NCBI GenBank assembly: GCA_026770025.1
Contig: JAMXDE010000030.1
Location: 124,001 to 188,000, forward strand
Source: Craspedostauros australis
Taxonomy: Eukaryota > Bacillariophyta > Bacillariophyceae > Mastogloiales > Achnanthaceae
DNA length: 64,000 bases
Direction: 5' to 3'
Below the pieces are notes generated by a model. That model had not been told where the DNA came from and ran no database searches. It saw nothing but the letters and a program-made list of their open reading frames with translations. Below are positions 12,040 to 62,206 of this stretch, piece after piece. Position numbers and translations under genes: made by a program. Position 1 is the stretch's first letter; every line of letters starts with the position of its first letter.

Positions 12040-12849
12040 TGTTGGCAAGTTCCATGAATGGAAGCCTACGATCGTGGAAGGTGGTGTTGGTTGATAGTCG
12101 TTCGTTTGCTATTTCATTAGTTGCCTACTCCGATCCTCTCGGTGTACGCCCGTTCTCTTGCCCGATGCTCTTGGCATGTTAATATGTTTTGTAGATTGGG
12201 TCTCCAACTATGAGTTGGTGTGCGAGATGCTCTCTTGCTGCTCTTTGTATTCTCTCTCTCTCTCTGTTAACATCGTGTGCTCGCGCTACACGATACTCCA
12301 TGTTCGATGCGTACTCCGCATTTGACACTCCGTTCGTTCAGTACTGGCTCCTACTCCATGAGTACTTACCATTTGAACTTCACCTTCTGTATCCGTGATG
12401 CTGATGCCCTTCGGTCATCGGATCTTTGCCTCCTGTTCTGACTTGGAGACAGATGTTGACGTGGTGACACGATGACATCCTGTCGACGTCAGAAGGCGTC
12501 CTTCTGCTCTCCAGATGTCACGTTCCATTGGTGATGCAGCAGTCTGTCAGATGATATCGTCATCTGAGGTTTAGTTGGGAAGTACCTCGAGATTCTCTTG
12601 GTACCATACGTCTCCATTGATGGATGGACGGACGATGTTTCTAATTCTCTCAGAAATCGTCGATTGCAAATTTCCTCCAGAAATTCTGCTCATTTTCGTG
12701 TGTTCCATTTCCACTGTAATTCTGACGAATCACAGCATACTATCGACACGAATGTAGTTGTACCGTCCAAGTACGTATGAGAGAATAACGGGTGAACGAT
12801 GCACATATACACGTACATCTCGACATATACTCACATGTACATCTCGACA
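12040..12849 (+). repeat. Left arm of an 810-bp inverted repeat
   Basis: This segment is the near-identical reverse complement of 14903-15711. It begins TGTTGGCAAGTTCC, ends CTCGACA (a TG...CA outline) and has an internal CT run near 12242. The inner 250 bp (12600-12849) match almost without difference; the outer part has scattered substitutions and a few small indels. The first codons read outward as GKFHEWKPTIVEGGVG-stop, which matches the C-terminus of the unknown protein encoded at 15657-17363. The arm could be a long terminal inverted repeat or one of two LTRs in opposite orientation. Confidence 0.9.
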
Positions 12850-13181
12850 CGCAGACACGTTCGGGAAAGAACTTTTTTTGACGGGTTGCGCACGGAACTT
12901 GACATTTCAGCGACGTCATTGTTCGACCTGTCCGAACACGTTTTTGGAATATCTAACCGTTTGTAGACGTTATCATTCAAATTCATATTTGACTCTCGTC
13001 GCATGTCACAAATCTCCTTATATTTTGCCGCCAAATCGAATTTTGCTTTTCTGCGGTGGCGTGCTGTGCTTGTGGCATGTTCATGTAGTTCTTGTATTGT
13101 CACCTTCTTGCACTCCTCCTGCTCAGTTCACTTCCATCAATACTAGTCTACTCTATCCACCTATCAGTACCAATCAGCATC

Positions 13182-14902
13182 ATGCCCGTCTCTACCACGA
13201 AAGCTGCGTCGAAAGACGCCAATCCTTCTCCCTCCAAGAAGCAGCGTTTTCCCTCCTCTCCATCTGTGCGCCCCTTCCCATCCGATCCTATTGATCGCAA
13301 GGAACTGTTCGCGCTGTCTGCTGCTGAGAAGCTCTTGCCTCCATTGGATATGGATGGTAACCAGCACAATCGGGCTTCTGCAACAGACAAGCTCCTCCCT
13401 TCTGTGCTCGAAGGCGCGACCTTCGACAACGAGTGTGACGTTGAGATCTTAGGCAACCACGAGCAAAATCGCACACTCAATGCAACCAACGAGAAGCTCT
13501 TTGTCCATGTGCACATCACCACCAACAATGGCATGATTCTTGACACCTCTAAGGTCACAGTGCAGGCCTTTGGACAGGGCTGCAATGCTGGGACAAAAGT
13601 GCATGTAAAAGTCTGCGTCCCGACTCCTCCAGCTTTCCCCGCACCCCTTCCCGCACCGACTATCCAACCAGCAAAGAAAGGCAAACGCATCCAATGCCGC
13701 AAGGCTGGTGACGACGAAGCCTTCCGCCCCAAGGGACGCAACAAAATCAAGAGCAGGAAATCAAACGCGGGAAGATTCCAAAACAAGCACAACACGAACA
13801 AGAGAGATGCGTTTGAAACCATCCACGAGGTTTTGCAAGAGCTTGGAGTGAAGAACCTTGCGACTGTGCTGGCCGACTTGCCGCGTTACAGGCTTGTGTT
13901 GGGGCGCAATTCTGACAAGCAAGTGTGAAGCAAAGCAAAGAAGATCTTTGTGGTGGCCTCCAATGCGCTGTGGTAAGCACTGATCCCAGCCATGACCTTG
14001 CCAGTTCCACAGATGGAACAAGTGGTTGCGTTCATGTGCGCAGGAGTGGACTTGCCGCCAGTCAAGCTGGCTCCCAATCTATACACGATTTGCCTCGTCG
14101 GCGAGAAGAACATTGCACGAACAGCAAGGTGCATTCTTGCCATGTCTGCCTTGCCACGCCAGTGCACAAACCTCCTCACCCAATCCAAGGGCGAACTTCC
14201 CGACGTTCAGCGTCTCAGCCTCTTGCCACAGCAATACACTGTCACACGGGGCCAGCTCTTCACTCTGCGCAACTACTATGAGCTGTTGCGCGAGGGCAAC
14301 GTGGCTGGTGCTGCTGTCTACAACTATCGTGTCAGCGCTTACAGCTTGGCTGGCGTGGTGTCCTTCATCAGCAACACTACCACATACAAGGCAGGCCTTT
14401 GTCACAATATCAAATGGGGAGGGGTGATATTTGAAAACGTGCCAGTATCCGAACGTGGCGGAACGAGCGTGGGCGAACTGTTCCAATGTACAAAACTACG
14501 ACGAACAACCCAGTTGGGGAGCAAGCATTCCGATCAATGACAGGAATGCTCACGCGCAGAGGCAAAGTGGTTACTGGTCTCTCCTCTTTTGAAAACTACT
14601 TCTGGATGGCAACAAAGACGCTGAAGGAGATGCTCGTGCGCTTGAATACCCTACTCGAGGATTCATTCAACAGTGATGACGGGCACGACGACTTAACTGT
14701 GGAGTATATTCAAACCTGTGAGACATTGGTGCGCGATCTGGACCTAATGATCACATTCCTCAAGTGGGAGTATACTGATTCGCACATGCAGATCAAGTGC
14801 GAAGAAGACCCCATGCACTGCGCTCATTTCGCGCTTCGCCGCAATTCAAAAATACGACAGGATAAATCTACACTCAGCACCACCACCACAACAGCACCTG
14901 CC
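13182..14902 (+). pseudogene. DD35E transposase-like family, copy 0, lacking the catalytic domain
   Basis: Frame from ATG 13182 (MPVSTTKAASKD) to a stop at 13928. It continues in the same frame after a second stop, from 13992 to 14540, then shifts frame at about 14500 and runs to about 14860. The middle and last parts align with the open copy at 23650-25980: VVSFISNTTTYKAGLC against VVQFITHNTHFKPGLC, and FLKWEYTDSHMQIKCEEDP against VQWEYGFLHMQKMCSED. The sequence stops before the RNase H-like DDE region, where the right inverted arm begins. The N-terminal 248 residues are Pro/Lys-rich and have no counterpart that I can identify. The two in-frame stops and the frameshift mean it is not functional as it stands. 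It sits inside the 12040-15711 inverted-repeat unit. Confidence 0.7.
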
Positions 14903-15711
14903 TGTCGAGATGTACATGTGAGTATATGTCGAGATGTACGTGTATATGTGCATCGTTCACCCGTTATTCTCTCATACGTACTTGGACGGTACAACTACAT
15001 TCGTGTCGATAGTATGCTGTGATTCGTCAGAATTACAGTGGAAATGGAACACACGAAAATGAGCAGAATTTCTGGAGGAAATTTGCAATCGACGATTTCT
15101 GAGAGAATTAGAAATATCGTCCGTCCATCCATCAATGGAGACGTATGGTACCAAGCGAATCTTGAGGTACCTCCCAACTAAACCTCAGATGACGATGTCA
15201 TCTGACAGACCACTGCATCACCAATGGAACGTGACATCTGGAGAGCAGAAGGATGCCTACTGACGTTGACAGGATGTCAACATGTCACCACGTCGACATC
15301 TGTCTCCAGGTCAGAGCAGGAGGCAAAGATCCAATGACCGAAGGGCATCAAGATCATGGATACAGGAGGTGAACTTCAAATGGTAAGTACTCATGGAGTA
15401 AGAACCAGTAGTGAACGAACAGAGTGTCGAATGCGGAGTACGCATTGAACGTGAAGTATCGTGTAGCACGAGTACACGATATTGAGAGAGAGAGAGAGAA
15501 TACGAAGAGTAGCGAGAGAACATCTCGCACACCGACTCAAAGTCGGAGACTGAACCTACAAGACAGGACAAACGTGCCGAGAGTATCGGGCAAGAGAACA
15601 GGCGTACACCGAGAGGATCGGAGTAGCCAAGTAATGAAAAAGCAAACGAACGACTATCAACCAACACCATCTTCCACGATCGTAGGCTTCCAATCACGGA
15701 ACTTGCCAACA
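14903..15711 (-). repeat. Right arm of the 810-bp inverted repeat
   Basis: Reverse-complement partner of 12040-12849. The two arms enclose about 2.05 kb, giving a 3.67-kb fold-back unit. Its outermost 55 bases supply the last codons and stop of the unknown protein that runs leftward from 17363. I could not find a matching short target duplication: the five bases outside the arms are cggtt on the left and gaggt on the right. Confidence 0.9.
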
Positions 15712-17437: not shown

Positions 17438-18216
17438 TGTTGGAAATCCGGGGTATAGATACTGTAGTTTAACCTTTATACACCTTCATTTCTCAATTCC
17501 TCAAGTCGTTTGCCCATGATGATGCTGGTTGCGCCCTGAAGTTGCTCCTGCAATCATCATAGCACACCCTCTCCATCATTCACATCTCATTGCTCATGAA
17601 AGGTTCATTTCATCATGTTCAATCATAGAGGTTTCCTCCTACACTCCTGCAGTGCATGCATGCCGATGCTGAGTTTCACTCTCTTCCGATCAGGCATCCA
17701 TCACTCATCCAGTGCACTCTTTCATGTTGTTCACTCACTCTTCTCACATGTTCACTGTTGGTCACATTTGGTTCAGAACATAGAGTTCTGGCACGATCAG
17801 TCCAGTCCTTCGATACTGTTCCAGTCCGCGCTTTGTTCTCCTTCGGCGGTTCTCTGTTAGTCACGTAATCATGGTCTGAGTTTTGATTGATACAACAGTG
17901 ATGGCATTTTCGCATGATGGCATTTTCGCATAGGTGTTTCGGTTCGACTGGTCAACCCTCGTGATTGGAACACTTCGGTGTTCCAGTCTCCCTTTCGCAT
18001 CCACTGTTCGCCATGTTAGTTTGCCAATCATCTCAAAACATGTCACATCATTAGTCTGTCCTTTGTCCGTCATACTCTTGACACACAGAGGGCGAAGGTC
18101 CACAATCGACTTGGGAGTGTGTCCGACTTTGGTAGATCGGTCAGTCTATTTTTGGTATTATGGGAGGTGTGGCAATCTAGGATAACACGACATTGTCGTA
18201 CCCTCGATTCCTGACA
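17438..18216 (-). repeat. LTR-like repeat A, reverse polarity
   Basis: It starts TGTTGGAAATCCGGGG and ends CGATTCCTGACA. It is strongly similar along its length to the reverse complement of 56688-57477 (shared blocks include GTTTGCCCATGATGATGCTG and TTCTCACATGTTCACTG). I define forward polarity as TGTCAGGAATCG to CCGGATTTCCAACA, the direction this family has before the gag gene at 62286. Both ends have the TG...CA outline of LTRs. The flanking five bases (acttg and agcaa) do not form a target duplication. Confidence 0.85.
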
Positions 18217-18483
18217 AGCAACAGTGGGCAGCAACAGTGGGCAGCAACAGTGGGCAGCAACAGTGGGCAGCAACAGTGGGCAGCAACAGTGGGCAGCAAC
18301 AGTGGGCAGCAACAGTGGGCAGCAACAGTGGGCAGCAACAGTGGGCAGCAACAGTGGGCAGCAACAGTGGGCAGCAACAGTGGGCAGCAACAGTGGGCAG
18401 CAACAGTGGGCAGCAACAGTGGGCAGCAACAGTGGGCAGCAACAGTGGGCAGCAACAGTGGGCAGCAACAGTGGGCAGCAACA
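18217..18483 (+). repeat. 13-bp tandem array, about 20 copies
   Basis: The unit agcaacagtgggc is repeated about 20 times with essentially no variation, starting at the first base after the LTR-like repeat. Because 13 is not a multiple of three, each strand can be read openly in all three frames as a 13-residue repeat (for example QQWAATVGSNSGQ), which explains the overlapping long frames here. The homogeneity implies recent expansion. A single unit also occurs near 52866 in the second element cluster. Confidence 0.95.
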
Positions 18484-18715
18484 CAGTAGGAGCATGAGCA
18501 GCAGAAGATGCAGTGGTGGATGCAGCAACAGCACCACAACCCAGCCGCAGTAACACCAGCGGCAGACAGCAACACCAGATGTGGTGGCAATGCAACAAAC
18601 AATGATGCCAGCAGCGCCGCAGCCAAGCTGAAGCAGCAACTAGAGCACCATACCACAGCAAATACAGAAATATAGACATTGGATACTCTTTATTGAATTC
18701 AGTCCTCTCAGATCT

Positions 18716-20078
18716 CTAGTTCAGTTTTGTATGGTAGGCCTGCACTGTCTGCGAGGATGTCTTTGATGTTCGTTTTCGTTTCTTGGGTTGTCCTTGTTCT
18801 GGTTGTGGTACGATCGATGCAGTTTCCTTTTCTTCTCGAGTTCGACTGCAAGTGCGAACAGTTGATTTGGACTTTGGTGGTAACGGTTTTCTCTTTGTGG
18901 TTGGTTTGGTTGGTGGCGATGATGGTGGTGGTTTCAGTGCACTTGTTAGCCGGAGTTTCACCGTTGATTTTCGCGGCGGTGTCGCGTTGGCCGTTGGTAT
19001 GGTTGTTGATGTGAGTGCTGGTGGGGGTTTGAATCCGGCGGTTGTCGCCATTTTCTCCCTTGGTCTTGTTCTGTTGAAATTGGCCTGCAGCCACTCATCT
19101 GTTGTCTGAAAGCGAAGCAATCAATCATGCTCGACCAATTCTTGCACCACTGTTTCCTGTCCCTCAGCCCCTGTGGCCTGCTTACGAGTGGATGGGTCAT
19201 TCAGCTTGTAGCAGTCATCAAGCAATGCTTTCACACCCAACACCAGACCTGCTTTCCTTGTGGATTTGGTGACTGCCCATCCAGCGCACATCTTTGGTGG
19301 CGTCGAGGCTGTTCTGGTAGCATTTCCTGGGCGTGTCCACAATACATGACTCTCCGCACCGCTCATGTTGACAGCTGCACAGAACACATTTGGGTTGTTG
19401 TGCATCTCTCCATCTGATTGCTCCTTGGCAACATTAGCCAGGCTCTTTGCCTTGCGCCGCTGTGTTAGTGACTTGGTTGTGAGAGCAGGCCCATCCGACT
19501 CCTCACCAACCTTGCAGTTGACCATCAGTTCTTGCCCAACAAATCGAACCAAATAGTCCCAGCTGATGATCTCAGGGTCAGTAAGATTCGAAGATGAATA
19601 CACCTCCACACGACCATCGAACCATTTGAAGTGATGGGTGGCTCTGACTCCGACCTTCTGTGTCCTGAACTTGATGTCATTGATGCCGTTGGATACAATC
19701 AACCCTTTCAATTCCGATGCATCCACAAACACAGCCGTGGTTCCTGCAATCTCCGCAAAGTTCATTGCCTCGAAGATGCCCAATTCTGTGGTGATCTGGT
19801 TCCCTTCCTTGATGTATGCATTCAGCACATGGGCGATGAAGCTGAAGTGAGTGTCCAGCCGACTCTACCCTATCTGTGCTTCGGTGTACACCCATTCCCT
19901 GATCTTGGGAAGATTCTTATTGTCTGCATGGGCATTCCAGCCAAAGATGAATGTGATCAATTGCTGGCTTGCGAAGCAACTAGCATTGTCACTTTGCACC
20001 ATGATATCCTTCACATTAGGGTATTGTGCAACATTAGGGTATTGGGCATGAATCTGCTCCATCAGGAACGACAAGACA
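18716..20078 (-). pseudogene. DD35E transposase-like family, copy 1, C-terminal half
   Basis: Read leftward, the frame enters at 20078 from inside the protein and contains SDNASCF (catalytic Asp), then 35 residues, then the catalytic Glu in YTEAQIG. It meets a TAG at 19865 but continues in the same frame (LDTHFSF...) to 19121. A basic Pro/Lys-rich tail follows in 19120-18716, possibly after a tiny intron or a frameshift. The region after the Glu aligns with the end of copy 2 (VRATHHFKWFDG against TRATHQVDILDN). The N-terminal half and first catalytic Asp are missing because the 20079-20702 unit interrupts the gene. A short in-frame duplication gives QYPNVAQYPNV just before the Asp. Inactive. 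Confidence 0.75.
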
Positions 20079-20702
20079 TGTCAGGAATCGAGCGTGTGAC
20101 TATGTTGCGATACTCGTAGATTGCCGCACCACCCAATACTATCATGAGGCCGAATATAATCAACTCATGGTGATCACACTTGGACAACCTTGTCCCTGTC
20201 ATGAAGCCTGTCCCTATCATGAAGCCTGTCGCTACCAGCTTTTCCATTCTGTTCAGCTCTTGCTTCTCTCTGTCTGTGAAGAACAGTGTGACTGGGACAC
20301 CCTTGAAAGAGTGTCTCAATCGCTTGCGATCTATTGGCACGATCGATTTGTTCCTTTTTGTGATGTTCCAATCCATACTTCGTCCTCCTTCATTATCCAT
20401 TCACATACAGCCTCATGTTCTGGGTTGTGAAGGATAAAACAGGAATGGCGCATGTGCATACATGTTGGCACACCAGTCAACAGCCATGCTCAGAACACTT
20501 CATCATTCCAGTCTTTCTTCATTGCTCATAGTTCACCATGTCTGTGTCTCATCCATCCGCCTTGTGAAATGCAGGGAGGACAGGCTGCAAGAGAATCAGA
20601 AGTGTGTCCGTCTTTGATGGATGGACTGGTTCAATATTGCTAGTATGGGAGGTGCGGCAATCACAGGGTAAGTCAACTAAATCGTACCCTCGATTGACGA
20701 CA
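20079..20702. repeat. 624-bp unit with inverted LTR-like ends between two head-to-head transposase copies
   Basis: The left end reads TGTCAGGAATCGAG, later GATTGCCGCACC; the right end reads GGTGCGGCAATC, later CCTCGATTGACGACA. Each end resembles the TGTCAGG end of the LTR-like family, in opposite orientations, for about 75-110 bp; the middle is unrelated and contains a short tandem repeat (ccctgtcatgaagcctgt) near 20193. It may be a small inverted-repeat (MITE-like) element or two truncated LTR ends fused together. No target duplication is visible (agaca and catac). Confidence 0.65.
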
Positions 20703-23134
20703 CATACTGCCATAGACAATGAATCTGTTGATACCATCATCGAGGAGGATGCTGTGGTGTATGATGCTGCGATGTATGATGATGACAGTGCAGAGCTCCT
20801 CAACAATGAGATGGCAAGTGATGACAGCCAGGAGGATGGCAGAGATCTTGAGTATGATGAAATGGAACATATGTGGACAACATGGGATGGCAATACAAAG
20901 TCTTGGGAGAAACTGTCCTCCATCATCAGCATGGCCCAACACAACATGCATGGTTTGAGAGACTTCTGCAAACAAGGATACAGCACGATTCCTGGCAAAC
21001 ATGAGACACAGAAGTGGTCAATGATCAACAGAGCATGGGAGCGGTTGATCACGATCTCATCGCACATCATCTTTCCCAACAGACCATGTCTGCGCCAATT
21101 TGCCAATGTGATGAGATTTGTCAGAGATGACAAACGCCTGCCTTAACTCGCCTTGGAAGAAACTGTCTGCCTGATGCTCTTCTTTGGCAATAGAGAGGTG
21201 TCCAAAAATGGCAGGTGCAATCCTCGCGTCAACTTCAACCTGCAAAGACTGTGCTGCCATCCTCACGCACCACTACAAGTGCCTCTCTCCAGAAGATCAG
21301 GCAAAGGTCATCTCCATGCGGACTAAAATGCACAGCTCCAAGCACAAACGGCTGATCCGTGCCACCAGAACAATTCTCAGGAGCGGACCAATTCCTGTTG
21401 GGAAGGCGAGAAGCCGCCTTGGTCGTGAGAAACTGCAGGAGGTAACTTCCTTCCTCGCCTCTGTCACAAATTTCAAGCCAGGCAGATCGTGCAAGGTGAA
21501 GCTCCATGGCGTGGTGTACGATGGTTTGCCTATCTTCCTCCGCGGCAACCAGACTGTCAGACAGCTATTTCGCCAATACAAGCAGACAGCAACAAAACTG
21601 GTGGGATTCAACACGTTCCACAAGGTCTTGCCCTCCTCACCAAACATGGCAACTGCAAAACAGGTCTTTCATCCTACTATGTGGATATTTTGGAAATGTC
21701 CATCAAGTTTACCGATATGCTCATGCGAATCATCGAAATGCTGGGCACAGATGATGCCACCAAGGATCTGCGCAAAGAGGCACTCGAAATTGGCGAAGAG
21801 TGGAACGAAGTCTTCACCTTGTCAAATGGGAGTACACACCTTCTCATGTGCACATCCAACGTGAGGACGACCACCTCCACTCAGCACAATTTGCTCTCAC
21901 CACCGGCGAATGTGACGCCCAACAGGAAGGCTGTGCACGTTGTGCGCATGCAATGATGTTCTTCTCCTTCCGTGTCACGGACTACCTTGAACGCACCAAG
22001 GCTCACATCCACAACCAACAGGACCAAGCAGAGTTCAACACCATGTTTGGGGCTGTGTCTCTGTGTGATAAGCAGCTTGGTGTGTACATGTCACACAAGG
22101 TGAGGGCAATGGTGCAATTCGAGCAAATCCGAAAGGAGAAGGAATCACTTATCAATGAAGAAGACAAAATGATCATTGTGCTTGATCACAAGCAGAAGAT
22201 ATTGCCCATCTGCAGCAAAGAATGTCAATCAGCATATTTTGCCAAAAAGGGAATGTCACTTCTGGGTGTGATGACCATTACTTATGAAGGAGGTGAGTAC
22301 CACTATCGCTTTGTGGACATGCTGATAAAAAACTACCATGCACAAGATCAAGTGCAGGTTGCAGGACTTCTCAAGCTACTTATGGCAGACATCTTTCCTG
22401 TCATGCATCCGGACAAGAAAAAACGTCATCCAGAGTGACAACGCAAGCTGCTTTGACAGCCCATCATTGATGCACTACATTTATGGGCTGAACCGAGGAG
22501 AACATGATGTGAAATTCAACCCCGAAGGCACCGCGGAAGAAAAGGCCCAATCATACACCGATGCAAAAATGGAGATCAACAACATCACCACCCATCCTGA
22601 TGCCTCCTGCAGGACAAGGCAATGAATAAGCCACCCAACCACCCAATCCACGCCCAAGATTGCCAAGTGCATCTACACTGAAGCACAGACTGGAAAGGGG
22701 CTCCTTGATGCACATTTCAGCTACACCAATGGCAGGCTCATATGGTACATTGATGGGGCCAAAATGGTAAGGAACAAACAGAAGAGGATGTTTTCCATGT
22801 GCTTGTGGAAGGGGAAAACTTATTGGCACCGCTCTTGTTTCCAGTCAACGAGAAGCGAAAATCGACCTTCTCCACCACGATTAAGCTCCGGACAAGAGCA
22901 ACCCACCAGGTGGACATCCTTGACAATTGTGTACATGTCACAGCATCATCCGGAGTGTCCAAACCAGAAGTTGTTGCACACACACAGCTTGATCTGTACT
23001 ACATGCAGGACCTTGACATCTGCTTGTTGGAAGGGGAAGTGAAACCAGTCACTGCGGCGTTCACATCCAAACCACAACCAAAGCAAACCGCTCAAGCAAC
23101 GGCGAACGCGAAAAAAGAAACGCGAGCAAACTGA
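20703..23134 (+). pseudogene. DD35E transposase-like family, copy 2, full extent but frameshifted
   Basis: Pieces in several frames: 20703-21146 (acidic N-terminal region), 21184-21700, 21650-21810, 21800-22438 (zinc-binding and first DDE part), 22430-22625 and 22670-23134. They follow the order of the open copy 3. Recognisable parts are KWEYTPSHVHIQREDD, CDAQQEGCARC, the first catalytic Asp in VLDHKQKILP, the conserved KKGMSLLGVMT, SDNASCF with the second Asp, and TEAQTGKGLLDAHFSY with the Glu. An insertion lies between the second Asp and the Glu. The C-terminus is basic (KPQPKQTAQATANAKK). At least four frameshifts mean it is inactive. A degenerate LTR-like repeat follows immediately. Confidence 0.75.
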
Positions 23135-23441
23135 TGTCAACTGGTGTCACACTGGGAGGCACGATGTGGTATGTACTGCACGAATGTAGATAGAAAACAC
23201 TGTGGATATGTATGATAAGGTACAGCAGTGAAGCAAAATGAGACACCTGGAGTGTATGAGACAAAACAAAAAGAAGTAGGGGAAAGAAATCATGTACACA
23301 AGGAGGAACATTGGGTGGTACTGTGGATTATACTTGCTATCTAAATTGGAATTGAAGGAGATGAAGAGAGTGATCTCAGAGTTCTAAAAACGGTACAATC
23401 AAATGACAGTTAGATCTACGTTGACTACATCCCGGATTTTC
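23135..23441 (+). repeat. Degenerate LTR-like repeat, forward polarity
   Basis: The last 130 bases align with the end of the repeat at 29200-29936: AAATTGGAATTGAAGGAGA, GAGTTCTAAAAACGGTACAAT and a decayed terminus ATCCCGGATTTTCCATATG. The start is too diverged to place exactly. Together with repeat A (17438-18216, reverse polarity) it brackets transposase copies 1 and 2. Confidence 0.6.
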
Positions 23442-23649
23442 CATATGTATGGATTGCGCCCGTGTCCCGCTGGTGAAGGCCTCACAAGTAGGATGAAGCA
23501 GGATGGCATCCATTTCGTATGTTGCTTGCATCCAGAAGGGAGGCAACCGAAGATCGCACGGGAAAGTCGCACATATTTTGAAACGCCTCTTGTTCCGTTG
23601 TTGCCTTGTGACCCGACCTGACCCGACCCGACCTGACCGCCTTGCGTAG
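23442..23649. other. Short spacer with CCCGACCTGA repeats
   Basis: Non-coding spacer between the degenerate LTR-like repeat and the end of transposase copy 3. Around 23610-23640 the sequence is a short run of cccgacctga-type repeats. Nothing else is recognised. Confidence 0.5.
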
Positions 23650-25980
23650 TTACCAACATACAAAGTGGAAATGTGTATTGATTGGGCACTTGCCAGTTTG
23701 AGCTTCAGTATTCACCCATTGCATGATTTTTGGTAGATTCGCCATTGCCTCTTGGTTCTGCATGTGGTAGATGAATGGGACAAGTTGTTGACTTGCAAAG
23801 CAGCTCGCATTGTCACTCTTGATGACAAGGGTTTTGGCGCCCGGATGCATCTCCTGTACAAGCCCTGGCAAAATGGTCAACACCGCCGCCACCATCCTGT
23901 GGTCTTGAGCTTTGTGACCTTTGACCAGGAGGTCAATGAAACGATGGTGACAGTCACCTTCTTTGGAAACTGTGGTCATGACACCAAGCAGCGACATGCC
24001 ATTCTTCCCGAAGAAATCCTGTTGTGACTCCAATCGCTCTGAAGGTAAGATCTTCTGTTTGAAGTCAACGATGCAAAGGACCTTGCCTTCCTCCAGCTTC
24101 AGACTCTCTCTGATCTCGCGAAGCTTGATGAATTGCACCTCGGCCCAGATCTTGTGAGCCATGAATGACTGCAAGTAAAGTTGCAATTCGTCCATGGCGT
24201 TCACCATGGTTGCTAGTTCTTGTTCGTATGCTGTGCCCTTCATTTTGTTCAGGATGGCAAAGATGCTAGGCTTCACAATGCAAGGAAGGAATGCCATGGT
24301 ATTTCCACATTTATCACAAGATCCCTCCCAAGTGGAACACTTATCTTTCTCAAGAGCAAATGAAGTGCAGTGGAATGTGTCTTCAGAGCACATCTTCTGC
24401 ATATGCAAGAAACCATACTCCCACTGCACAAACACTGAGATTGTGTGCCATTGCTTGAGCACTTCATTGCAAGTCACAGGAGACAGCAATATTGGCGGTG
24501 GGGGTGGAGGCTTTGGAACCTCATCAGGATTCACCTTGGCAGCCACCGGAACGTTGTCTGGATTCAGCTTGCTGGGCGTTGGGATGCTGCTGAGTCGATG
24601 GAGTATGTCTTTGAATATCTCCGATGGGCTGTAAAAGTCCACATAGTAGGGCAAGAGGCCAGCATGACATTGGCTTTTCTGGGTGAGCGATTTGACCAAT
24701 TTGTAGAAGGTTGGCCTCCCAACACCATCAATGGTGGACTTTTGGTACTCCTGGAAGAATTCGTGGATGCTCCAAGCACCCAGCCCGAACACAGGAAGAT
24801 TGGGGAAGTCCTTTCCCCGGAGCTTGATGGACCAGCACAACCCAGGCTTGAAGTGAGTGTTGTGGGTGATGAACTGAACGACATTGTCCAGCTTTGCTGA
24901 AGCAATCTGGAAGCTGTTCTTCCTTGTGGGGAAATCCTTTCCAGCAGCAAGAACAGCATTGATCTTCTTCAGTTTGCGATGAGTATGATCTGTTGTGTCC
25001 CACTGTTGTGCATGATGGTTGTGGGGGATGGGTGGTGAAATTGTGTGACTGCAGGCTTTCAGGAATGTATTTCTCTCCTTGACAGACTTGGCTGCTTCCA
25101 ACACATACTTGGAGCATTGAGAGGTTTGATATCTTGCGTTGAAGCATTGGGAAGCACAATTCTTGGCCGTCTGGACAGGATATATGGGCAGTGCCTCTTG
25201 GTAACAGTCAAAAGCATCCCTGAAGTCGACAGGAGCAACTTGATGCGAGACCAGAGTCTTCGATACAAAGTCATGAGCATCCATTTGAATGCCATGGTAG
25301 GTTCTCCAGGCACGAGGTTGAGTTTTGTCTGGGATGTGATGCCAACCATGTGGCGGAAAGTTGCGAAGTTTGGATGGATCTCTCTTCATGACGCAGTACA
25401 TCTCCATGAGAACATCACTGGTTGTAGGAGTGGATGGAGTGGCTGCAACGGGCACACTAGAATTGTTGATTGATTCTATCTCACTGCCACTGTCATTGGG
25501 TAGTTCGAAAGCAGGATTGGATCTATCATCGTTGCTGGTGCTGGTGTCATCGCCTGGCAGATCATTGGCACTTTTATCGCCATGAAGTGCCATGTGGTGG
25601 GCGATGGGCATGGTCTCTGGGAAACGGACAGCACAATGCATGTCGTTGGAGAGAGGCTGGAGTCGATTGTGGTGGACAAAAACATTCAAGGAAGACTCCA
25701 GCAATGTACTTGGGATCAAGATATCAGCATAGCCCATTTGGTTGGGAGGGTGAGGCTGGTTGAAGTTTGGAGTATGCAATTGGCAAGCACACAGATAGTT
25801 TGCCACTGGACCCTCTGACTTGGTGCTGTTATAATTGAGTGTGGCGTTTTGGTTCATGTGGAGGATGCTCCAGGCATGACATCTGTGGATCGAGGAGCCA
25901 CCAAATTGGTAGCTGCGAAGATAGTCAATGATGTGATGGTTCATTGGTGAACCACCATTGACAGCAGCACCACTGTGCAT
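23650..25980 (-). CDS. DD35E transposase-like protein, copy 3, open frame of 776 aa
   Basis: The only uninterrupted copy of the family, from ATG 25980. The N-terminal 250 residues are Ser/Asn/Pro-rich. A middle region follows (VVQFITHNTHFKPGLCWSIK, later LTQKSQCHAGLLPYYVDFY). Then a Cys/His cluster (FHCTSFALEKDKCSTWEGSC and DKCGNTM) suggests zinc binding. The last 130 residues form an RNase H-like catalytic region: Asp in IVDFKQKILP, 83 residues later Asp in IKSDNASCF, and exactly 35 residues later Glu in VNTEAQTGK. That D-x83-D-x35-E layout fits transposases and integrases. I cannot assign it to a named superfamily. The C-terminal domain seen in copies 1 and 2 is missing, because the frame ends 15 residues after the Glu, so this copy is probably 3'-truncated and may be inactive. 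Confidence 0.7.
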   Translation of the reverse strand: MHSGAAVNGGSPMNHHIIDYLRSYQFGGSSIHRCHAWSILHMNQNATLNYNSTKSEGPVANYLCACQLHTPNFNQPHPPNQMGYADILIPSTLLESSLNVFVHHNRLQPLSNDMHCAVRFPETMPIAHHMALHGDKSANDLPGDDTSTSNDDRSNPAFELPNDSGSEIESINNSSVPVAATPSTPTTSDVLMEMYCVMKRDPSKLRNFPPHGWHHIPDKTQPRAWRTYHGIQMDAHDFVSKTLVSHQVAPVDFRDAFDCYQEALPIYPVQTAKNCASQCFNARYQTSQCSKYVLEAAKSVKERNTFLKACSHTISPPIPHNHHAQQWDTTDHTHRKLKKINAVLAAGKDFPTRKNSFQIASAKLDNVVQFITHNTHFKPGLCWSIKLRGKDFPNLPVFGLGAWSIHEFFQEYQKSTIDGVGRPTFYKLVKSLTQKSQCHAGLLPYYVDFYSPSEIFKDILHRLSSIPTPSKLNPDNVPVAAKVNPDEVPKPPPPPPILLSPVTCNEVLKQWHTISVFVQWEYGFLHMQKMCSEDTFHCTSFALEKDKCSTWEGSCDKCGNTMAFLPCIVKPSIFAILNKMKGTAYEQELATMVNAMDELQLYLQSFMAHKIWAEVQFIKLREIRESLKLEEGKVLCIVDFKQKILPSERLESQQDFFGKNGMSLLGVMTTVSKEGDCHHRFIDLLVKGHKAQDHRMVAAVLTILPGLVQEMHPGAKTLVIKSDNASCFASQQLVPFIYHMQNQEAMANLPKIMQWVNTEAQTGKCPINTHFHFVCW

Positions 25981-27221
25981 TCTCTGTTGTGGGGGGCGGT
26001 CTTGATCAGAGCTGGCAGAATGGCAGTGGCGAACTGGGGGCTGTTTGCTTCATCCTCATTCCCAGGCCTTTGAGGTGTTGTTGCCAGTGATTGCTGGTGC
26101 CCATCAATTGGCAGAGGCTTCGAGCTTGTCATGGTTGGAAATGCTGGTGGGTTGCTCTTTTTGGCAGGCTATGATGCACAACAATAGAGTGAAGCTGGTT
26201 GTGGTTGGTCCAATGAGCCACACAGTAAACAGTCTTTGCTGAAAGAATGGGCTGGGAGTCTTTTTGCAGAGATGAGATCCTTTGTGGAGGATGATGGAGG
26301 AGGTGGGTGTCACTGTGGCAACAGGAGGGGCAAAATCAAGGGAGGTCGGAGGTGAACGGATGCCCCTGGCATTGCGCATGAAGCAAAGCGAAGCCCCATG
26401 GTTTCGGGGAAACAGTTATTGAGAACCAGCAGTTGTGCAACAGAATTGCAAGGGGTATCGCGTTGGTGCGTATGGGAACAGTGATGCGTGAAGTGCTGGT
26501 TGCTGGACACAAGAGTTCGGAACCACCACCACAACAACGATGCGAAACACCACCTCCACAGACACGTCCGCAGGGATCCTACGGGGTCCCCAAACAGTTA
26601 CAACACTAAGTTAGTACTATGTCAATTTGCACTCAAAACGGACTCGACCACCCTGTTGTCCGTTGCTTGTCGAACTGTTTGTGGTGCCATCGTCATCTTG
26701 ACGAAAAACTGGTGTGCATATGTGACCACCGATCCTGTGTCCCCTCCGATGGGAAGCCTTGGTGACAGTGAGGTCTCTCATGCACAAAGAAACAGCTGTA
26801 TGCATCTCTCTTATGATGCAGCCCATTTATGGAACATGACCATGATAAAGGATACACGAACAACACCTGAGCCCATTGACATCGTGGTCATGGCTTTCAA
26901 GGAAGGAGGTCCCACCCTGGGTGAAGTCTGATCTTGTTTCAACAACCTGCTAACCTGTCCTTCTGCATTGCTCACTAACACCCCAGCCCTAATCATGCAA
27001 CTATCTACTTGAAACCTACCATCGGATAAGACTTCCTCTGCCAACTGCAACTGGGACTTGAGCCCCAACCAACCAACACCAAGCTTGCCAGACGAGCCAC
27101 TAGCAGTTACAGAGTGAATCCAGTGCACACTTTCCGCCAATTGGAAGTTGGATCGAAGCTGCAGCCCACATCGATCGATTTCACCCTCCCTGAGGACAAA
27201 GGATCCCTGACACTCCCATCA
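25981..27221. other. Spacer inside the element cluster
   Basis: 1.2 kb between the start of transposase copy 3 (minus) and the gag-like pseudogene (plus). A frame at 26488-26931 (147 codons, plus) is open but unrecognised. No LTR-like terminus (CCGGATTTCCAACA) is found before the gag-like start, so the pseudogene has no visible 5' LTR. Confidence 0.5.
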
Positions 27222-29199
27222 TGAATGAGGGCAGAGCACCCGCAGGCGGCCAGCCAGAAGCTGGTAACATGCCTGCAATTGAACCCACTGCCAAGCAGCT
27301 TGCTGCCGAGCAACGCGCTGCCAAGCAACGTGCTGCCAAAGAGCAATGACTTGCCACCAAGCAACACACTGCCGCAGATCAACAACCAGCTGCCAACAAA
27401 TCCTGTGACTCCGCTACCAGTCCGCAAGCAGCAGCGGAACAACAACCGCAGATGCAAGACATCCAATTGGCCATTGAGCAGATCACTAATCTCCGCGCCG
27501 AACTGCAGCAGCAACTTGATGCAATGACTGCACGCGAACTGGACCTCCAAAACAGGGAGGCCACTCTCGAACAAGAGCAATGAGCACTTCAGGCCAAAAG
27601 TGCCAAGCTCCAAACCCGCGCTGTTGAGTTCAACACGATGGTGACCTCGCCCATGGACTCACCTTCAGGAGGCGACGAGCCTGACAAGCGCATCATGAGC
27701 ATGCTGGATGATGCCACATCATTCAGAACTCCCACTCCATGCAAGCCCATCAAGCCTATCATGGGCAACATCATGGAGGAGGGAGGACAGTTCTTCCCAT
27801 GGACTGGAGGCATGCCCTTGAGTGACTGGTCAGGACTTGCTGATGACACCCTTGGGTATCAGCACAGCTACCAGAAGCCCTCAATCCACAACGGAGCCGA
27901 CGTCAAAGCCCAAACGAGAGATCGAGAAAGATATCACACCGCGATTCAAGAGAAGAGACGATATCCAGCGCTTCTTCCGCCTCTTCAAGCATGCTTGCAT
28001 CCTTTGAGGTCTTGATTCTGTGACGTACCTTCCAGGCAACCACAACAGGACCAAGATGGTATGCATCCTCGACTCCCCAGGTCTCTTCAACTTCGACAAT
28101 GTCCTTGCCGCCATCGATCAGTGCATGCCGTTGTATGATGAATACAACAAGCGTATCCTGGTGTCCGTCGCGGAACCCTTCCACAAGAGTCTGCACCACT
28201 CCTTGGAGAACAACCTCACCAAATGCTTGGACCCAGCATATGTCGACAACATCTGTATGCTGATCATGGAGCTCATGAACGAGATCGATCCTGGCATTGA
28301 GGATAGGTTCCCCAACATCCGTGACACCATCCGCAAGATCACTCCCCAGCAGTACCCAGGCGAGATCATCCGTTTGATGGCAGATGACATCATCAGACTC
28401 GCGCAACAACTGACGGACAACGACGAGTTTTTGCTCGACCTTCTCCGCTCCATGGTGGACAGCTTCCTTCTCGGTGGTGCCCAAGACAACATCTTGGCCA
28501 ACTACCAACATGAGTTGCGGATCTTGTCCTTGGATGTTCGGAAGGGCCTGCACGATGTGAAAAGTCTTCTGAAGGATCGAGCCATGCATGAGCTGCTGCA
28601 ACGCAAGCTGATGTGGCGTAATATCTGTAACACAGCTTCGGATCGGTACAAGCATGAACTGAATGCCGGGCGCTGAAGGGCAGCTTTGCAGACCAACAAC
28701 CGCTGTGTTCCTTGCTACGGAGCACATCTCGCATCCGAAGCCAGCCAAGAGCTCGCCATGGTCATCACTCCCAGGAACAGCCATCAAACCACCGGGCCTA
28801 CGCGCTACAAGCACGGAGGAGGCAAGAAGGGGGCATCGAATGCACCCAGAAAGTCTGCTCAGGGACAGGGCAAGTGGACCAACAACAAGAAACGAGGAAA
28901 GAACAAGGCCAACGAGTGGAAGACCATCGCACCAAAGGCAAACAAGCCGCACCAGAAGATGGTCAACAACAAGACCTACTACTGGTGTGCCAAGTGCAAC
29001 CATTGGCACTTTTACCATGGCACTTCTAGTCACAACGATGACTACAAGTCGAACCAGGCCGTTGCGCATGGCAACATCGTCTTCGACCCCTCAGCATGGA
29101 CATGCATGTTTGGTGCTTCGGACAGCCCCATTTGGTGGATACCACAATCCCTCGATGTCATCACACGCATGATTTGGACTCATCTCATCATGATGAGCC
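27222..29199 (+). pseudogene. Broken copia-like gag with zinc-finger-like motif
   Basis: It starts with ATG 27222 (MNEGRAPAGGQPEAGN). An Ala/Gln-rich coiled segment is interrupted by two in-frame TGA codons (near 27347 and 27581). The frame then shifts at about 28000 into a helical region (28020-28676, GLFNFDNVLAAIDQCMPLYD onward), and again at about 28680 into a Lys/Asn-rich segment. That segment contains YYWCAKCNHWHFYHGTSSH, a Cys-Cys-His-His arrangement resembling the zinc-binding motif of diatom copia gag proteins as I remember them. The sequence runs straight into the LTR-like repeat at 29200 without protease, integrase or reverse transcriptase, so it is an internally deleted element. 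The assignment to copia gag is an inference. Confidence 0.6.
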
Positions 29200-29936
29200 T
29201 GTTAGGAATCGAGAGTACGGCTTTGTCAAGATACCCATGATTGTCGCACCTCCCAAGATTATCAATCACGACTGAACAAACCGAATCTTATTGATCACAC
29301 CCTTGACACGACTGAACAAAACGACTCTTGTTCATCGCGCCCTCTTACCAAGAAAACAAGCCTGTCCTCCTCTAACAAGAAAACCAAACGGCGCAAGGCA
29401 GCATGTCCCAACATCAAACACGACAACGCGCCAAATCAACCGACGACGTCATGGGAGAAAGATCGATGACCAACCGGCAAGTGTCGCGCCCCATCTGGAG
29501 AAAGACATCAAGTGCCTCCCACGGACTGGATCATTCGTATGATTAGACAATCAGAATGATTCAGAAAAGCAATCAACATGACACCAATCGTAAAACAGGC
29601 GCAATCAAGACATCACGGGATTGAAGGCGAAACCTGTGACGATATAGATGCATGACTGCGGAATCGTACTGCATGAATGTAGATGAGAACGAGCATGAGG
29701 ATATGCATGATGAAGATGCCTGATGAAAGGCGTCATGAGATACATACGAAGATGCATGATGAAAGGACATGATGACAACACAAGAACACAGCAGTATGGC
29801 ATGATGCTATCACGGAAGATGGCTGATATGAAATTGAAATCGAAAGAGATGACGAGTTTGAGCTCACAGTTCTAACACGGTACAATCTAATAATAGCTTA
29901 GATTACTACTACTATCATAACCCCAGATTTCCAACA
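29200..29936 (+). repeat. LTR-like repeat D, forward polarity
   Basis: It starts TGTTAGGAATCGAG and ends CCCCAGATTTCCAACA (737 bp). It is the reverse-orientation relative of 55170-55901, with which it shares long blocks such as the region around CGTGATGATAGCATCATG-like sequence and the terminal TACTACTACTATCATAACC. It directly follows the gag-like pseudogene, as a 3' LTR would. Flanking bases gagcc and gtgat give no target duplication. Confidence 0.85.
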
Positions 29937-46334: not shown

Positions 46335-47273
46335 ATGATTGCAACGTCTCGAATGGCCAGATTCCATCACGGCAGAATGAGCATTCTGCATTTTCTTGTC
46401 GCCGTCGTTTGCATCGCTCTCACCGTCGGCAGTGCGCACACTGACAGTGATGGCGCCACCGAAATCGAAGACACGGATGGGACTATTGATGCCAAGGATA
46501 CTTCCTTTACCAAGACCAGCGACAGCAGCATCCAGATACCGGCAGCCAACGATGTCAACGATAAAGAGCATGAAGAGAACGAGGAGGAGGAAGAGTCCTA
46601 CCACATGGACCCACCCGTTGGATACTACGACAACGGCTTGGAGATTCTCCAAGAAAATGTGTTCGTCTTGGAGGATTCCTTCGTCACATCCAACTACGGC
46701 AACAAGGAGGCCATGCGAAGTGAGATCGGGTGCTACGAACTGGAAAGTCCAGGACCCATCCATGGCGAAAAAGAATTCATGCTCCTGCGAGGTGCCTACC
46801 AGGCCATCGTGGGATCCGATGCATCCAGCCTCCAAGACATTCAGTATGGAAATGGATACGAGGTTCCCGTCTACGTCGGATATCACCCCCTCATGGGACG
46901 CGGCGTCTTTGCGAAAGCATCCATTGCGAACGGCACGAAGATCTGGGACGAGCGATACACGGGATGCTTCGAGCAAGGTTGGCAGTACCGAAACTTCCTC
47001 CTCAGCATTCCCGTGCGGTTGGCCTGCGACGTGATGGTGTGGTCCTACGTGCTGCGTTTGACGAACAATACCAAGGTGGCGATATGTACGGATCTGGACG
47101 AATCTTCCTTCACGAATCAGGCGTACTTCGAGAGCCAGGTGAATGTGTTCGAAGACCAAACGTTGGACCCGTCGCAGCTGTTCGCGGCGAGGGACATTGA
47201 ACCTGGCGAGCAGCTCATTGTGGAGTATGGTGATTTTGTCTACAGCAATGGATGGAAGCATTTCGGTCTGTGA
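46335..47273 (+). CDS. SET-domain-like protein with signal peptide, tandem copy A, 312 aa
   Basis: ATG 46335 is followed by a short basic stretch and a hydrophobic core (ILHFLVAVVCIALTVGSAHT), which looks like a signal peptide or anchor. An acidic linker (about residues 80-95) precedes the domain. The domain spans about 150-312: GRGVFAKASIANGTKIWDE (the N-SET pattern), CDLDESSFTNQ-type region, and ARDIEPGEQLIVEYGDF (the C-SET tyrosine region), ending in WKHFGL. SET proteins methylate lysines using S-adenosylmethionine. Here the usual NHS/C motif is replaced by FTNQAYFESQVNV, so catalytic activity is doubtful. Secretory targeting is odd for a SET protein. Its close paralog lies 476 bp downstream. 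The frame is open upstream to 46185, but without an ATG. Confidence 0.75.
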   Translation: MIATSRMARFHHGRMSILHFLVAVVCIALTVGSAHTDSDGATEIEDTDGTIDAKDTSFTKTSDSSIQIPAANDVNDKEHEENEEEEESYHMDPPVGYYDNGLEILQENVFVLEDSFVTSNYGNKEAMRSEIGCYELESPGPIHGEKEFMLLRGAYQAIVGSDASSLQDIQYGNGYEVPVYVGYHPLMGRGVFAKASIANGTKIWDERYTGCFEQGWQYRNFLLSIPVRLACDVMVWSYVLRLTNNTKVAICTDLDESSFTNQAYFESQVNVFEDQTLDPSQLFAARDIEPGEQLIVEYGDFVYSNGWKHFGL

Positions 47274-47749
47274 CGGAGTTACGAGTACAGTACGAAGAGC
47301 ACCCGAAAGAGCAACAAGTTGGCTTGTATTCATCTCCGGAACGAATGAGAGAGAAGAGAGGAACATGCGACGGGGCGTACGAGTAGCTAAGGTATGGCAT
47401 AAGCATTTCCGCAGTATTAGGTGTGAAATGCTGCACTGTGCTGTACTATGGAGTATGCACATACAACCACTCTACGAATATGTTGCACGAGTAGTTAGAG
47501 TCGAGTCGAGCCGAGTACTCCAGAGGGGAGGGCGCTGTGCGCGATTCTAGTTTTGTTGTTCGTAGCTCGTACTCGTTCATGTCCTTGTGGAGGAAGGAAC
47601 AACCACCCACACTCGATTCCTTGTGTCTTCGCGTCTTCGTGGAAAGATCGTGACTGCTGATGGCATGACGGCATGACGGGGAGTGAGAGCGAGAGAACAA
47701 GTGCAAGCCGGCACAGAAGACAATCACGACGACGACCACTACGGTGGCC
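47274..47749. other. Spacer between tandem SET-like genes
   Basis: 476 bp holding the 3' end of copy A and the promoter of copy B. No other feature is seen. Confidence 0.6.
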
Positions 47750-48682
47750 ATGATGATGATGATGATGATGATGATGGGCAGGATGATGACGCCACGCTGT
47801 CTTCGGTCCTTACTTGTACACATTGTCCTCCTGATGCAGTTATGTCTCGCTCCAACTGCATGGTGCGAAGATGTCACGAGTGATGAGCCGAGCTATGGTG
47901 GAACTCAACGAAGCGCCGATCCATCGAGCGATACCAGCGATGATGGATCGATGCAGCAGCATGATGACCAGACAAGGACAGAACGCGCCGGGAGCCCGGG
48001 ACACCACGACGATGCAGAGATCGAGACATTCAACAATGGGAAAGAGGTGAATGTCGATACCATCTTTCGGTTACCTCGGTTCCCACACTTGAACACGAAT
48101 CATGGCATTCTGCCTGAGATCGGCAAAGCCATGGGCTGTGAGATTGAGGACGGCATGCCTGATCCAATCCACGGCGAGCAGGAATTCATGCTTTTGCGAG
48201 GTGCCTACCAGGCCATCGTGGGGCCTCGCGCATCCACCCTACGATCGACGCTGTATGGCAACGGATACGTTGTTCCCATCTACGTCGGCTACCATCCGCT
48301 CATGGGACGAGGCGTCTTTGCGGAAGCGCCCATCGCGTTTGGCACGAAGATTTGGGATGAGCGACACACGGGATGCTTCGAGGAGGGATGGCAGTTCCGC
48401 AACTTCCTTCTCAGCATCCCGGTCCAGCTGGCGTGCGATGTCATGATGTGGTCCTACGTTCTGCGTTTGGAAAACAACACGAAGGTGACAGTGTGCTGTG
48501 ATCTGGACGAGTCTTCCTTCACCAATCAGGCGTCCCGCACGCGCCAACTCAACGTTTACGAAGACCAGACGGTGGAACCATCGAATCTGTATGCGATCGA
48601 CGATATCGATGCTGGGGAGCAGCTGCTGACAACGTACGGTGACTTTGCATTCGCAGATGGTTGGAAGCACTTTGATCTGTGA
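47750..48682 (+). CDS. SET-domain-like protein with signal peptide, tandem copy B, 310 aa
   Basis: Paralog of the gene at 46335-47273: over the last 170 residues most positions are identical (for example YHPLMGRGVFAEAPIAFGTK, GCFEEGWQFRNFLLSIPV, LDESSFTNQAS, AGEQLLTTYGDFAFADGWKH). The N-terminal half differs. The start lies in a run of nine ATG codons (47750-47776), so initiation may occur at any of them or at the ATGATG at 47783. A hydrophobic stretch (LLVHIVLLMQLCLAPTAWC) after TPRCLRS looks like a signal peptide. As in copy A, the NHS/C motif of SET enzymes is altered (SFTNQASRTRQLNV). The order and spacing point to a local tandem duplication. Confidence 0.75.
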   Translation: MMMMMMMMMGRMMTPRCLRSLLVHIVLLMQLCLAPTAWCEDVTSDEPSYGGTQRSADPSSDTSDDGSMQQHDDQTRTERAGSPGHHDDAEIETFNNGKEVNVDTIFRLPRFPHLNTNHGILPEIGKAMGCEIEDGMPDPIHGEQEFMLLRGAYQAIVGPRASTLRSTLYGNGYVVPIYVGYHPLMGRGVFAEAPIAFGTKIWDERHTGCFEEGWQFRNFLLSIPVQLACDVMMWSYVLRLENNTKVTVCCDLDESSFTNQASRTRQLNVYEDQTVEPSNLYAIDDIDAGEQLLTTYGDFAFADGWKHFDL

Positions 48683-49042
48683 CACTCCAAGGAAGCATGG
48701 TACATATTCGCATGAGGTATAGTACTCCCAAGCAAATTCCTCGCCTTCCTGCAGTCACACTGCAATGCATACTCGTACTCGAATGTACCAGACAGGTCAA
48801 GGTCGGCCCTCTCACGTTCCAACCAGCACAGTCGGAGCGAAATGGCAGGCTAGCTGCTTGTGACGTGGAGCAAGTATACTTTCGGCTCGTCGACTAAAGA
48901 GATTACGAGGATCATGTATTGGTAGATATTGGTAGAGTGGAAAAGCACATGACTCTAGAGAGGATTGGTACTAGAGCACGAGTATTCTACGTGCAGTGAC
49001 AAACGGATGCGTTACGGAATGGTTGCGCGCTTTGGCGCTTGC
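48683..49042. other. Short convergent intergenic region
   Basis: 360 bp between the second SET-like gene (plus) and the coiled-coil gene (minus). No gene is seen. Confidence 0.6.
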
Positions 49043-55169: not shown

Positions 55170-55901
55170 TATTGGAAATCTGGGGTTATGATAGTAGTAG
55201 TACTCTAATCTCTTATTAGATTGTACCGTCTTAGAACTGTGAGCTCAAACTCATCATCTCTTTCCATTTCAATTTCATACCGGGCATCTTCCGTGATCAT
55301 GTCATGCCATACTGCTGTGTTCATGCGTTGTCATCATGTCTCTTCATCATACATATTCGTATGCATCTCATGATGCCTTTCATCAGGCATCTTCATCATG
55401 CGTATCCTCACATTCGTTCTCATCTACATTCATGGTACGATTTTGCAGTCATGCATCCATCTCGCCACAGGTTTCGTCTCAATCCCTTGTTGTCGTTGAC
55501 TCCACCTGTTTTACGATTGATTGGTCTTAATTACTTTTCTGAATCTTTCTTGTTGTCAATCATACGATTGGTCTTGTCCGTCAGGAGCACGTGCATCACT
55601 TGTTTCTGTTTCTCCAAGTGGGATACGATTCCTACCCGCTGCCCCTGCGCCCCTTTTGGATATGCCTCACCGACCAAGAGATGTCTTGTCGGCTTGGATC
55701 GGGACTCCCTGTTGTGTATTGTCATGGTGTTCATGTTAGAGGAGGACAGGCTGTCTTTCTTGGTGAGACTGAGTTCAGTCACGTTCGCATTGGGTCAAGG
55801 GTGCGATCAACAAGAGTCGATTTATTCAGTCGTGATTGATAATTTTGGGAGATGCGGCAATCATAGGTATCTTGACAAATTCGTACCCCCGATTCCTAAC
55901 A
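55170..55901 (-). repeat. LTR-like repeat E, reverse polarity
   Basis: It starts TATTGGAAATCTGGGG (a one-base change from the consensus TGTTGG) and ends CGATTCCTAACA (732 bp). It is the inverted relative of 29200-29936. The bases after its end (gccct) begin directly inside a copia reverse-transcriptase fragment. No target duplication (gagcg on the other side). Confidence 0.85.
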
Positions 55902-61525: not shown

Positions 61526-62206
61526 TGTCAGGAATCGAGGGTACGACTCTGTCGGAAAGATACCCATGATTGCCGCAACTCCCAACATTATTTGTCACAC
61601 CTTTGGATATTATTCGTCACACCTTTGAATATTATCCATTCCACCCACGACACGAATCACACGGGAATGACCTCAGTCTTACCAAGCAAACAAGCCTGTC
61701 CTCTGTGAATCAAGAAAAGGCAACGATATCTAAATCATGTGAAGGAAGATGATGACCGACACATTGATGATCACCCCATCTGGAGATCATGGCACGTGTC
61801 ACCCAGGGACTAGAACAACTCAGAAAGGGCATCATCCATGACACCAATCATGACACCAATCGTAAAGTTCGGTGTCAGGAGATCAAGAGCGAAACGCAAG
61901 ACTGTGGAATCGTACCGCAGGGAATGTAGAATAAGGATATGCACGACGAGGTGCATGGCAAGAATGCCTACGGATATACACGACGATATGCATGACAAGG
62001 ATGCCTGCGGGTGAGATCTCATGCATGCAAGCGTTGATCCATGATGATGAGATACTTGAATACAACAGTCTAACACGATGCTGCTGCAGGAGATGCTACA
62101 TGAGAAACGAAAGGCAAAGGAGCTGAAGAGAATGAGCTCACAGTTCTGAATAGTACGATCTAACAACCAATTAGTTCTTACTAACACTAACCCCGGATTT
62201 CCAACA
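61526..62206 (+). repeat. LTR-like repeat G, probable 5' LTR of the copia element entering at the right edge
   Basis: It starts TGTCAGGAATCGAGGG and ends CCCCGGATTTCCAACA (681 bp). A copia-type gag begins 80 bp later on the same strand, the spacing expected for a 5' LTR, so this copy fixes the family polarity. The sequence after the end (cgtttcgaaacg) should include the primer-binding site, but I could not match it to a tRNA. The five bases to the left are attta; the matching 3' LTR would lie beyond the window. Confidence 0.8.

Follow-up and report, generated by a model that had tools for sequence, protein, structure and literature searches.

Few superfamilies of eukaryotic transposases have been catalogued, and coverage of protist lineages is thin. 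Among the described DNA transposons, Sola elements are by description most like those treated here; the passage on Sola in PMC10741241 gives them a 4-bp target-site duplication (TSD), a DDD transposase, sizes of mostly 2–9 kb with some >15 kb, and terminal inverted repeats (TIRs) of 11–1124 bp. Passages in other papers describe giant Sola-1 elements in a brown alga (PMC12477816), a choanoflagellate Sola1 with 32-bp inverted terminal repeats, a 4-bp TSD and, as far as that passage goes, no functional domain identified (PMC6875170), and the TSD AWWT for Sola2 (PMC3627910). Excerpts on other systems report for Ginger termini of the form TGTNR, with CCGG/CCGT or RTATAY as target (PMC2836005), a 6-bp TSD with TAYGG..CCRTA ends in fungal families for IS3EU (PMC12730594), the TSD TTAA for piggyBac (PMC5199201) and an 8-bp TSD for Zisupton (PMC12730594). 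Here we analyse a stretch of 64,000 nt from the diatom Craspedostauros australis (the window, G000:C28:124001-188000), in which an initial annotation had noticed four copies of a transposase-like protein family. With a probability of about 0.88, these four are the dead remains of a DNA-transposon family that is itself autonomous.

This reading is carried by complete elements elsewhere in the same genome (74.8 Mb, 90 contigs), i.e. those of group D, one of seven subfamilies of relatives, all from this genome, for which we coined the labels A–G. The initial annotation had suggested looking in other diatom genomes for intact elements bearing TIRs and TSDs; within the present genome, group D supplies them. 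Two copies, on contigs C7 and C18, have sharp homology edges in common, and the element is ∼6.0 kb long. Its ends are inverted copies of GAGCCCCCCGAGTGAGTCGATCAAGAC, starting with GAGCC, and in the C7 copy the TIR is perfect over 27 bp and imperfect to ∼170 bp. When the genome was searched with GAGCCCCCCGAGTGAGTCGATCAAGAC at ≤3 mismatches, 24 forward and 22 reverse matches were obtained (46 altogether), and the reversed pattern used as control gave 0 and 0. These ends form 14 inward-facing pairs 6.00–6.11 kb apart and five pairs 12–21 kb apart, with eight ends unpaired.

Identical 4-bp flanks of the form NTAN were found in all 15 copies read at both ends. The exact-match group (5/5) has TTAT, TTAT, CTAG, GTAT and ATAG, and the 3-mismatch group (10/10) has CTAT, TTAA, TTAG, CTAT, ATAA, ATAT, ATAG, ATAC, TTAT and GTAA; in the latter, 10 of the 11 paired copies were read, C15:1141579-1162825 and the eight unpaired ends being left out. 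A second-end search in seven small stretches contributed three of the 15; L070 gave one end and L069, L071 and L073 none, the ends of these last three copies lying 14–20 kb apart. Transposase sequence was seen inside 5 of the 15 (on C7, C18, C52, C77 and C25; the interiors of the other ten are outside this count), and the C77 and C25 interiors match the D protein at 75–89% over 800-bp samples.

Insertion is also precise. From our own reading of the flanking frames, the C7 copy appears to interrupt a Copia-like frame. If its flanks are joined with one TTAT the two halves are in register (SSAITLCDNNT); with both TSD copies, none, or half they are out of register. The joined 36 bases match six other places in the genome with 1–3 mismatches (control 0), and these are paralogous empty sites. 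That the proteins belong to a host gene family or a virus and are no transposases, as big single open frames lacking a recognised domain might suggest, is highly improbable and for group D contradicted: its frames are enclosed by precise repeats that have TIRs, TSDs and empty sites, and no IMG/VR or phage relative was found.

The TSDs and ends also bear on several named superfamilies. Kolobok elements duplicate TTAA. This target, shared by piggyBac, occurs in just 1 of the 15 group-D TSDs, and both superfamilies were rejected though the 4-bp length matches. Zisupton (KDZ) has a large transposase and long elements in common with the family but was rejected for its 8-bp TSD, compared with 4 bp in group D. 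IS3EU, which had been put forward as a possible distant branch, is likewise a eukaryotic TIR DNA transposon; it was rejected on the 4-bp TSD and GAGCC ends of group D, as compared with the fungal families of the excerpt cited (PMC12730594).

On sequence comparison, all four window loci are assigned to a single transposase family, of which they encode fragments. This part of the initial annotation stands: tblastn with the 798-residue copy 4 recovers the other three inside the window (E 7e-21, 1.5e-15 and 1e-35), the remaining rows there, at E >2, being chance. The nearest subfamily differs from copy to copy, i.e. G for copy 1 (L074), E for copy 2 (L111, compared over 400 residues only), F for copy 3 (L033) and A for copy 4 (L002). 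None of the four (0/4) is intact, each being truncated or frame-broken (Table 1). Copy 1 aligns with L074 at 79% over residues 26–467 and 90% over residues 465–591 by tblastn, and at 87% over 13182–14902 by blastn; it stops upstream of the Cys cluster, the DDE domain being absent, so the x35 spacing once said to recur in it has no place there. Copy 2 matches L111 at 76.5% over 20077–19682, its alignment with G running on to 19058, and has an in-frame stop immediately past TEAQIG. For copy 3, blastn gives 90.3% to L033 2701–5188 and the tblastn pieces 58–89%. Copy 4 reaches 89.8% to L002 1308–4448 by blastn, and by tblastn 82% over residues 91–926 and 91% over residues 6–91; it has a 799-codon frame at 23650–26049 with a frame change near 26040 and its C-terminal part gone, and this frame is that of a truncated copy, the relative L002 having 1,238 codons. 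The window copies themselves are ordinary dead remnants, and the transposon family, poorly catalogued, is worth recording.

Table 1. Family copies in the window and selected codons of copy 4, in window positions
Feature	Position	Strand	Basis
Copy 1, G-subfamily N-terminal half, frame-broken	13182..14866	+	tblastn to L074
Copy 2, fragment of the E subfamily in which SDNA, x35 and TEAQ are present	19058..20077	-	tblastn; x35 counted
Copy 3, F-subfamily fragment with multiple frame changes, without either protein end	20703..23154	+	blastn/tblastn
Copy 4, A-subfamily relic, best preserved of the four	23450..26606	-	blastn/tblastn to L002
Copy 4, D1 codon (DFKQKILP), proposed catalytic	24064..24066	-	computed; D1 invariant in 10 rows
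Copy 4, D2 codon (SDNA), proposed catalytic	23812..23814	-	x83 from D1; at end of strand b4 in the L002 model
Copy 4, E codon (TEAQ), third residue in the initial annotation	23704..23706	-	x35 from D2; directly after strand b5 in the L002 model
Copy 4, codon matching the LDxHF Asp (alternative third residue), Asn here	23677..23679	-	computed; Asp in 10/10 rows

Across the genome, the search with copy 4 scored 56 of 373 candidates and returned at least 67 rows, one of them copy 4, and that with the G protein scored 46 of 577 and returned at least 51; the family must be taken as no smaller than these counts suggest, and some rows represent parts of a single copy. In the fetched loci, 19 distinct copies have stop-free frames of 1,190–1,325 codons, measured from stop to stop (the frame of L011 is cut off by the locus edge). 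In the G search, 19 of the 51 listed rows have a frame of ≥1,150 codons and a stop-free match, to which four partial rows on C24 are added; because the listed frame length crosses stops beyond the match (L024: 1,295 listed, 1,014 true), this is no count of intact genes. The residues shared in the alignments begin in the helical region, span the core and reach a C-terminal GWA stretch, and over a long alignment the D protein is 50% identical to G and 26–32% identical to the other subfamilies. Judged by this likeness, A, C, E, F and G would move in the same way as D. L035 and L036, which lie in different flanks, share 99.77% identity across 5,261 bp, which argues for recent movement.

The order of motifs described in the initial annotation (KWEY/QWEY, Cys/His cluster, KQKILP, GMSLLG, SDNA, TEAQ) was recovered in ten rows from seven subfamilies with few substitutions, such as EGEY, KQKQLP and GMSMLG in the E row, L111. 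The spacing from the first Asp (D1) to the second (D2) is x83–x84 in 25 long frames, which represent 23 distinct copies (L014/L031 and L022/L032 being the same DNA); a further long frame, L023, reads TEVQ and was left out of this count. In the same 25 frames the spacing from D2 to the Glu of TEAQ follows the subfamily, with x35 in A, x36 in D, x68 in C, x80 in F and x98–x100 in B; elsewhere it is x35 in copy 2, copy 4 and L111, and x36 in G. Thus the interval of exactly 35 residues holds for copies 2 and 4, while the family ranges from x35 to x100, and a fixed DD35E signature is unsupported. The D-x83-D-x35-E layout, originally counted in copy 3, was counted in copy 4; the frame of copy 3 is broken, and x80 is the spacing in L033 and L034, its relatives.

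A second conserved acid lies nine residues past the Glu of TEAQ, namely the Asp of LDxHF (D257 in the L002 core model), at a distance from D2 of x44 in A, x45 in D, x77 in C, x89 in F and x107–x109 in B. Both acids are kept in every one of the 26 long frames, which represent 24 distinct copies, so conservation cannot pick the third catalytic residue. For a structural view, AlphaFold2 was run on a 382-residue core of L002 with a 10-row alignment, and the model had a predicted local distance difference test (pLDDT) score of 78.7 and a predicted template modelling (pTM) score of 0.79. Its elements are, in order, a strand with D128 within it, two more strands, a helix, a strand ending at D212, a helix, a strand at 240–247, E248, and a helix at 254–272 that includes D257. 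In this model the succession of strands and helices corresponds to that of RNase H, with D1 and D2 at the expected places. In RNase H-like enzymes the third acid usually opens the helix after strand 5, as in HIV integrase. The helix-start position after strand 5 in the L002 core model is D257, and the TEAQ Glu ends the strand; the model therefore suggests that the Asp of LDxHF, rather than the Glu of TEAQ, may be the third catalytic residue.

With Foldseek, the core model was matched in the PDB to NurA or terminase nuclease in all of the top 14 places, Hermes and RNase H ranking lower and all matches being weak. The longer model gave a ranking with Argonaute, terminase nuclease, Mos1 and Hermes, and matches in the viral library include RNases H and terminases. 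The NurA, terminase nuclease, Argonaute, Mos1 and Hermes matches we take to be RNase H-like folds. An RNase H-like fold of the predicted core is thus supported, not proven: the strand and helix order fits, but the structural matches are all weak. Of the initial interpretation, support goes to a transposase family whose core is RNase H-like by prediction and which lacks a convincing match in the libraries searched, and complete copies bearing TIRs and TSDs exist. Several points weigh against the transposon reading of the window copies. The longer model was poor (pLDDT 61.3), no Foldseek match in the PDB or viral libraries reached E 0.001 or better and TM-scores were low, and the lists include unrelated folds (acetyl-CoA carboxylase, chimallin, glucokinase). 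Each alignment held 10 sequences only, all from one genome, and the link of the window copies to group D is protein homology.

Integrases carry the motif SDNGxxF ... PQxxGxxE, which the order SDNAxCF ... (E)AQxGKxxLD of the family parallels. This resemblance of SDNAxCF to SDNGxxF and the Cys cluster ahead of the core would fit a Ginger-like or retroviral-type (rve) integrase element; moreover, Ginger1 and Ginger2 also have a zinc-binding-type cluster before an RNase H-like core, and Ginger1 has a 4-bp TSD. Such an assignment, also considered in the initial annotation, is nevertheless very unlikely. The group-D ends read GAGCC..GGCTC, not TGTNR, and the NTAN TSDs are neither CCGG/CCGT nor RTATAY, the Ginger features given in the excerpt of PMC2836005. 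While Ginger is highly identical to Gypsy integrase, none of the six long proteins of the family matched rve in Pfam, and the 89 rve places listed for the genome, with 150 out of 600 candidates scored, include none of the family places that the copy-4 search listed.

In Pfam-A, no family passed the cut-off for the four window pieces or the six long proteins, the few weak hits being unrelated. Among PDB sequences, A1 had no match at E ≤1, and the four matches of A2 (E 0.2–0.7) are phosphatases aligned past the catalytic residues. No relative was found in a phage search. Peptide-pattern scans matched 14 and 21 stretches in IMG/VR and 54 in prokaryote genomes, none of them confirmed, and since these scans require exact short peptides, absence there says little. 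An animal protein family with similar motifs was also considered and rejected: DNA patterns for three of its motifs gave 36, 1 and 1 IMG/VR stretches and no relative. Among open-licence PMC papers, no paper was found on NTAN with transposon and TSD.

These results, together with the lack of a close fold and a TA-centred NTAN duplication with free outer bases, are what an unnamed superfamily or a deep DDE/D transposase branch of its own would give, a reading that is tenable, if short of an even chance. The collections searched contain few eukaryotic transposons, and the Sola1 described in the passage of PMC6875170 is likewise without a recognised domain. With a slightly lower chance, such a eukaryotic superfamily might be defined by a transposase of ∼1,200–1,300 codons, a Cys/His cluster, an integrase-like DDD core with spacings of x44–x109 (motif SDNAxCF ... 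TEAQxGKxxLDxHF), insertion at TA-centred NTAN sites and recent activity, its first-look candidate places in a single genome numbering in the hundreds.

A divergent branch of Sola has a chance close to even, and Sola is the best named fit by description. Sola and the family have in common a 4-bp TSD (15/15 group-D copies), TIRs, elements of several kb to giant size and possibly a DDD triad, the conserved Asp that opens the helix following b5 being where a DDD enzyme would have it. The sizes and TIRs quoted from PMC10741241 fit the group-D elements, giant Sola-1 elements are described for the brown alga (PMC12477816), and the excerpt on the choanoflagellate Sola1 combines a 4-bp TSD with a transposase lacking an identified domain, as here (PMC6875170). 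On the other side, the likeness is by description only, and the AWWT target given for Sola2 (in the passage of PMC3627910) is unlike the CTAG, GTAT, GTAA or ATAC found here, group D having NTAN (e.g. CTAG, GTAT, ATAG, CTAT); because the Sola2 target differs, Sola1 would perhaps be nearest, no target for Sola1 or Sola3 having been found in the papers cited. The family is accordingly not assigned to Sola here, and divergent Sola and unnamed superfamily are kept as parallel readings. The young complete elements with clean ends and TSDs make placement, third residue and target preference directly testable.

For catalysis, excision and the role of each acid, we infer a scheme with one large transposase, made up of a variable N-terminus, the helical region, a conserved H..AL..C..C cluster, the RNase H-like core and the likewise conserved C-terminal GWA stretch. 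It would bind the GAGCC-type ends and cut them by means of metal ions that D1, D2 and one more acid (the TEAQ Glu or, more likely, the LDxHF Asp) coordinate. The ends would then be joined to the target with a 4-base stagger centred on TA, and gap repair would leave the 4-bp NTAN duplication. If an element proves active, this 4-bp target, centred on TA and free in its outer bases, would offer a usable preference for insertion.

Outside group D, the right end of B elements, the only B end reached, reads GACCCGCCTGAG inwards and resembles the group-D end, with WTAW directly outside it in 8 of 8 loci read. L031:1091 was rejected as a true B end, as L032 and L064–L066 share sequence past it and the edge is a break in L031. 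B elements have ∼5 kb upstream of the transposase frame, with no obvious second gene among the listed open frames (L031–L032, L039–L042, L064–L066), and are probably longer than 11 kb. At C32:477651-497192, a D-type end pair lies 19.5 kb apart around a B-type transposase place (C32:489433), and here one family member seems nested in another. On C6, two family proteins have D-like terminal sequence (82%) close by. The idea of D ends in G was rejected, both C6 proteins being absent from the 51 listed rows of the G search.

Within the window, copy 1 is flanked by inverted copies of ∼810 bp (12040–12850 and 14903–15711) with TG...CA ends. A query of 401 bp, taken from 13 bp outside the left one onwards, detected a repeat of high copy number (40 scored out of 1,138 first-look candidates), and at the five loci examined the flanks were unrelated. 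The TG/CA ends, high copy number and unrelated flanks led us to reject the ∼810-bp repeats as TIRs of the family, and they are probably long terminal repeats (LTRs) of a retrotransposon. Repeats with TGTYAGGAATCG-type ends lie at 17480–18216, 29199–29936, 55172–55902, 56688–57407 and 61526–62206, two of them seen to finish in CA, and short pieces at 20079–20135 and 20601–20695 adjoin copies 2 and 3. They are probably LTRs or LTR pieces of related retrotransposons, and the pieces beside copies 2 and 3 mark the region as nested transposon debris. About 20 near-perfect 13-bp units (18217–18489) start exactly at the end of the 17480–18216 repeat. A direct repeat of ∼520 bp with 77% identity is present at 46755–47274 and 48164–48683, 1.4 kb apart.

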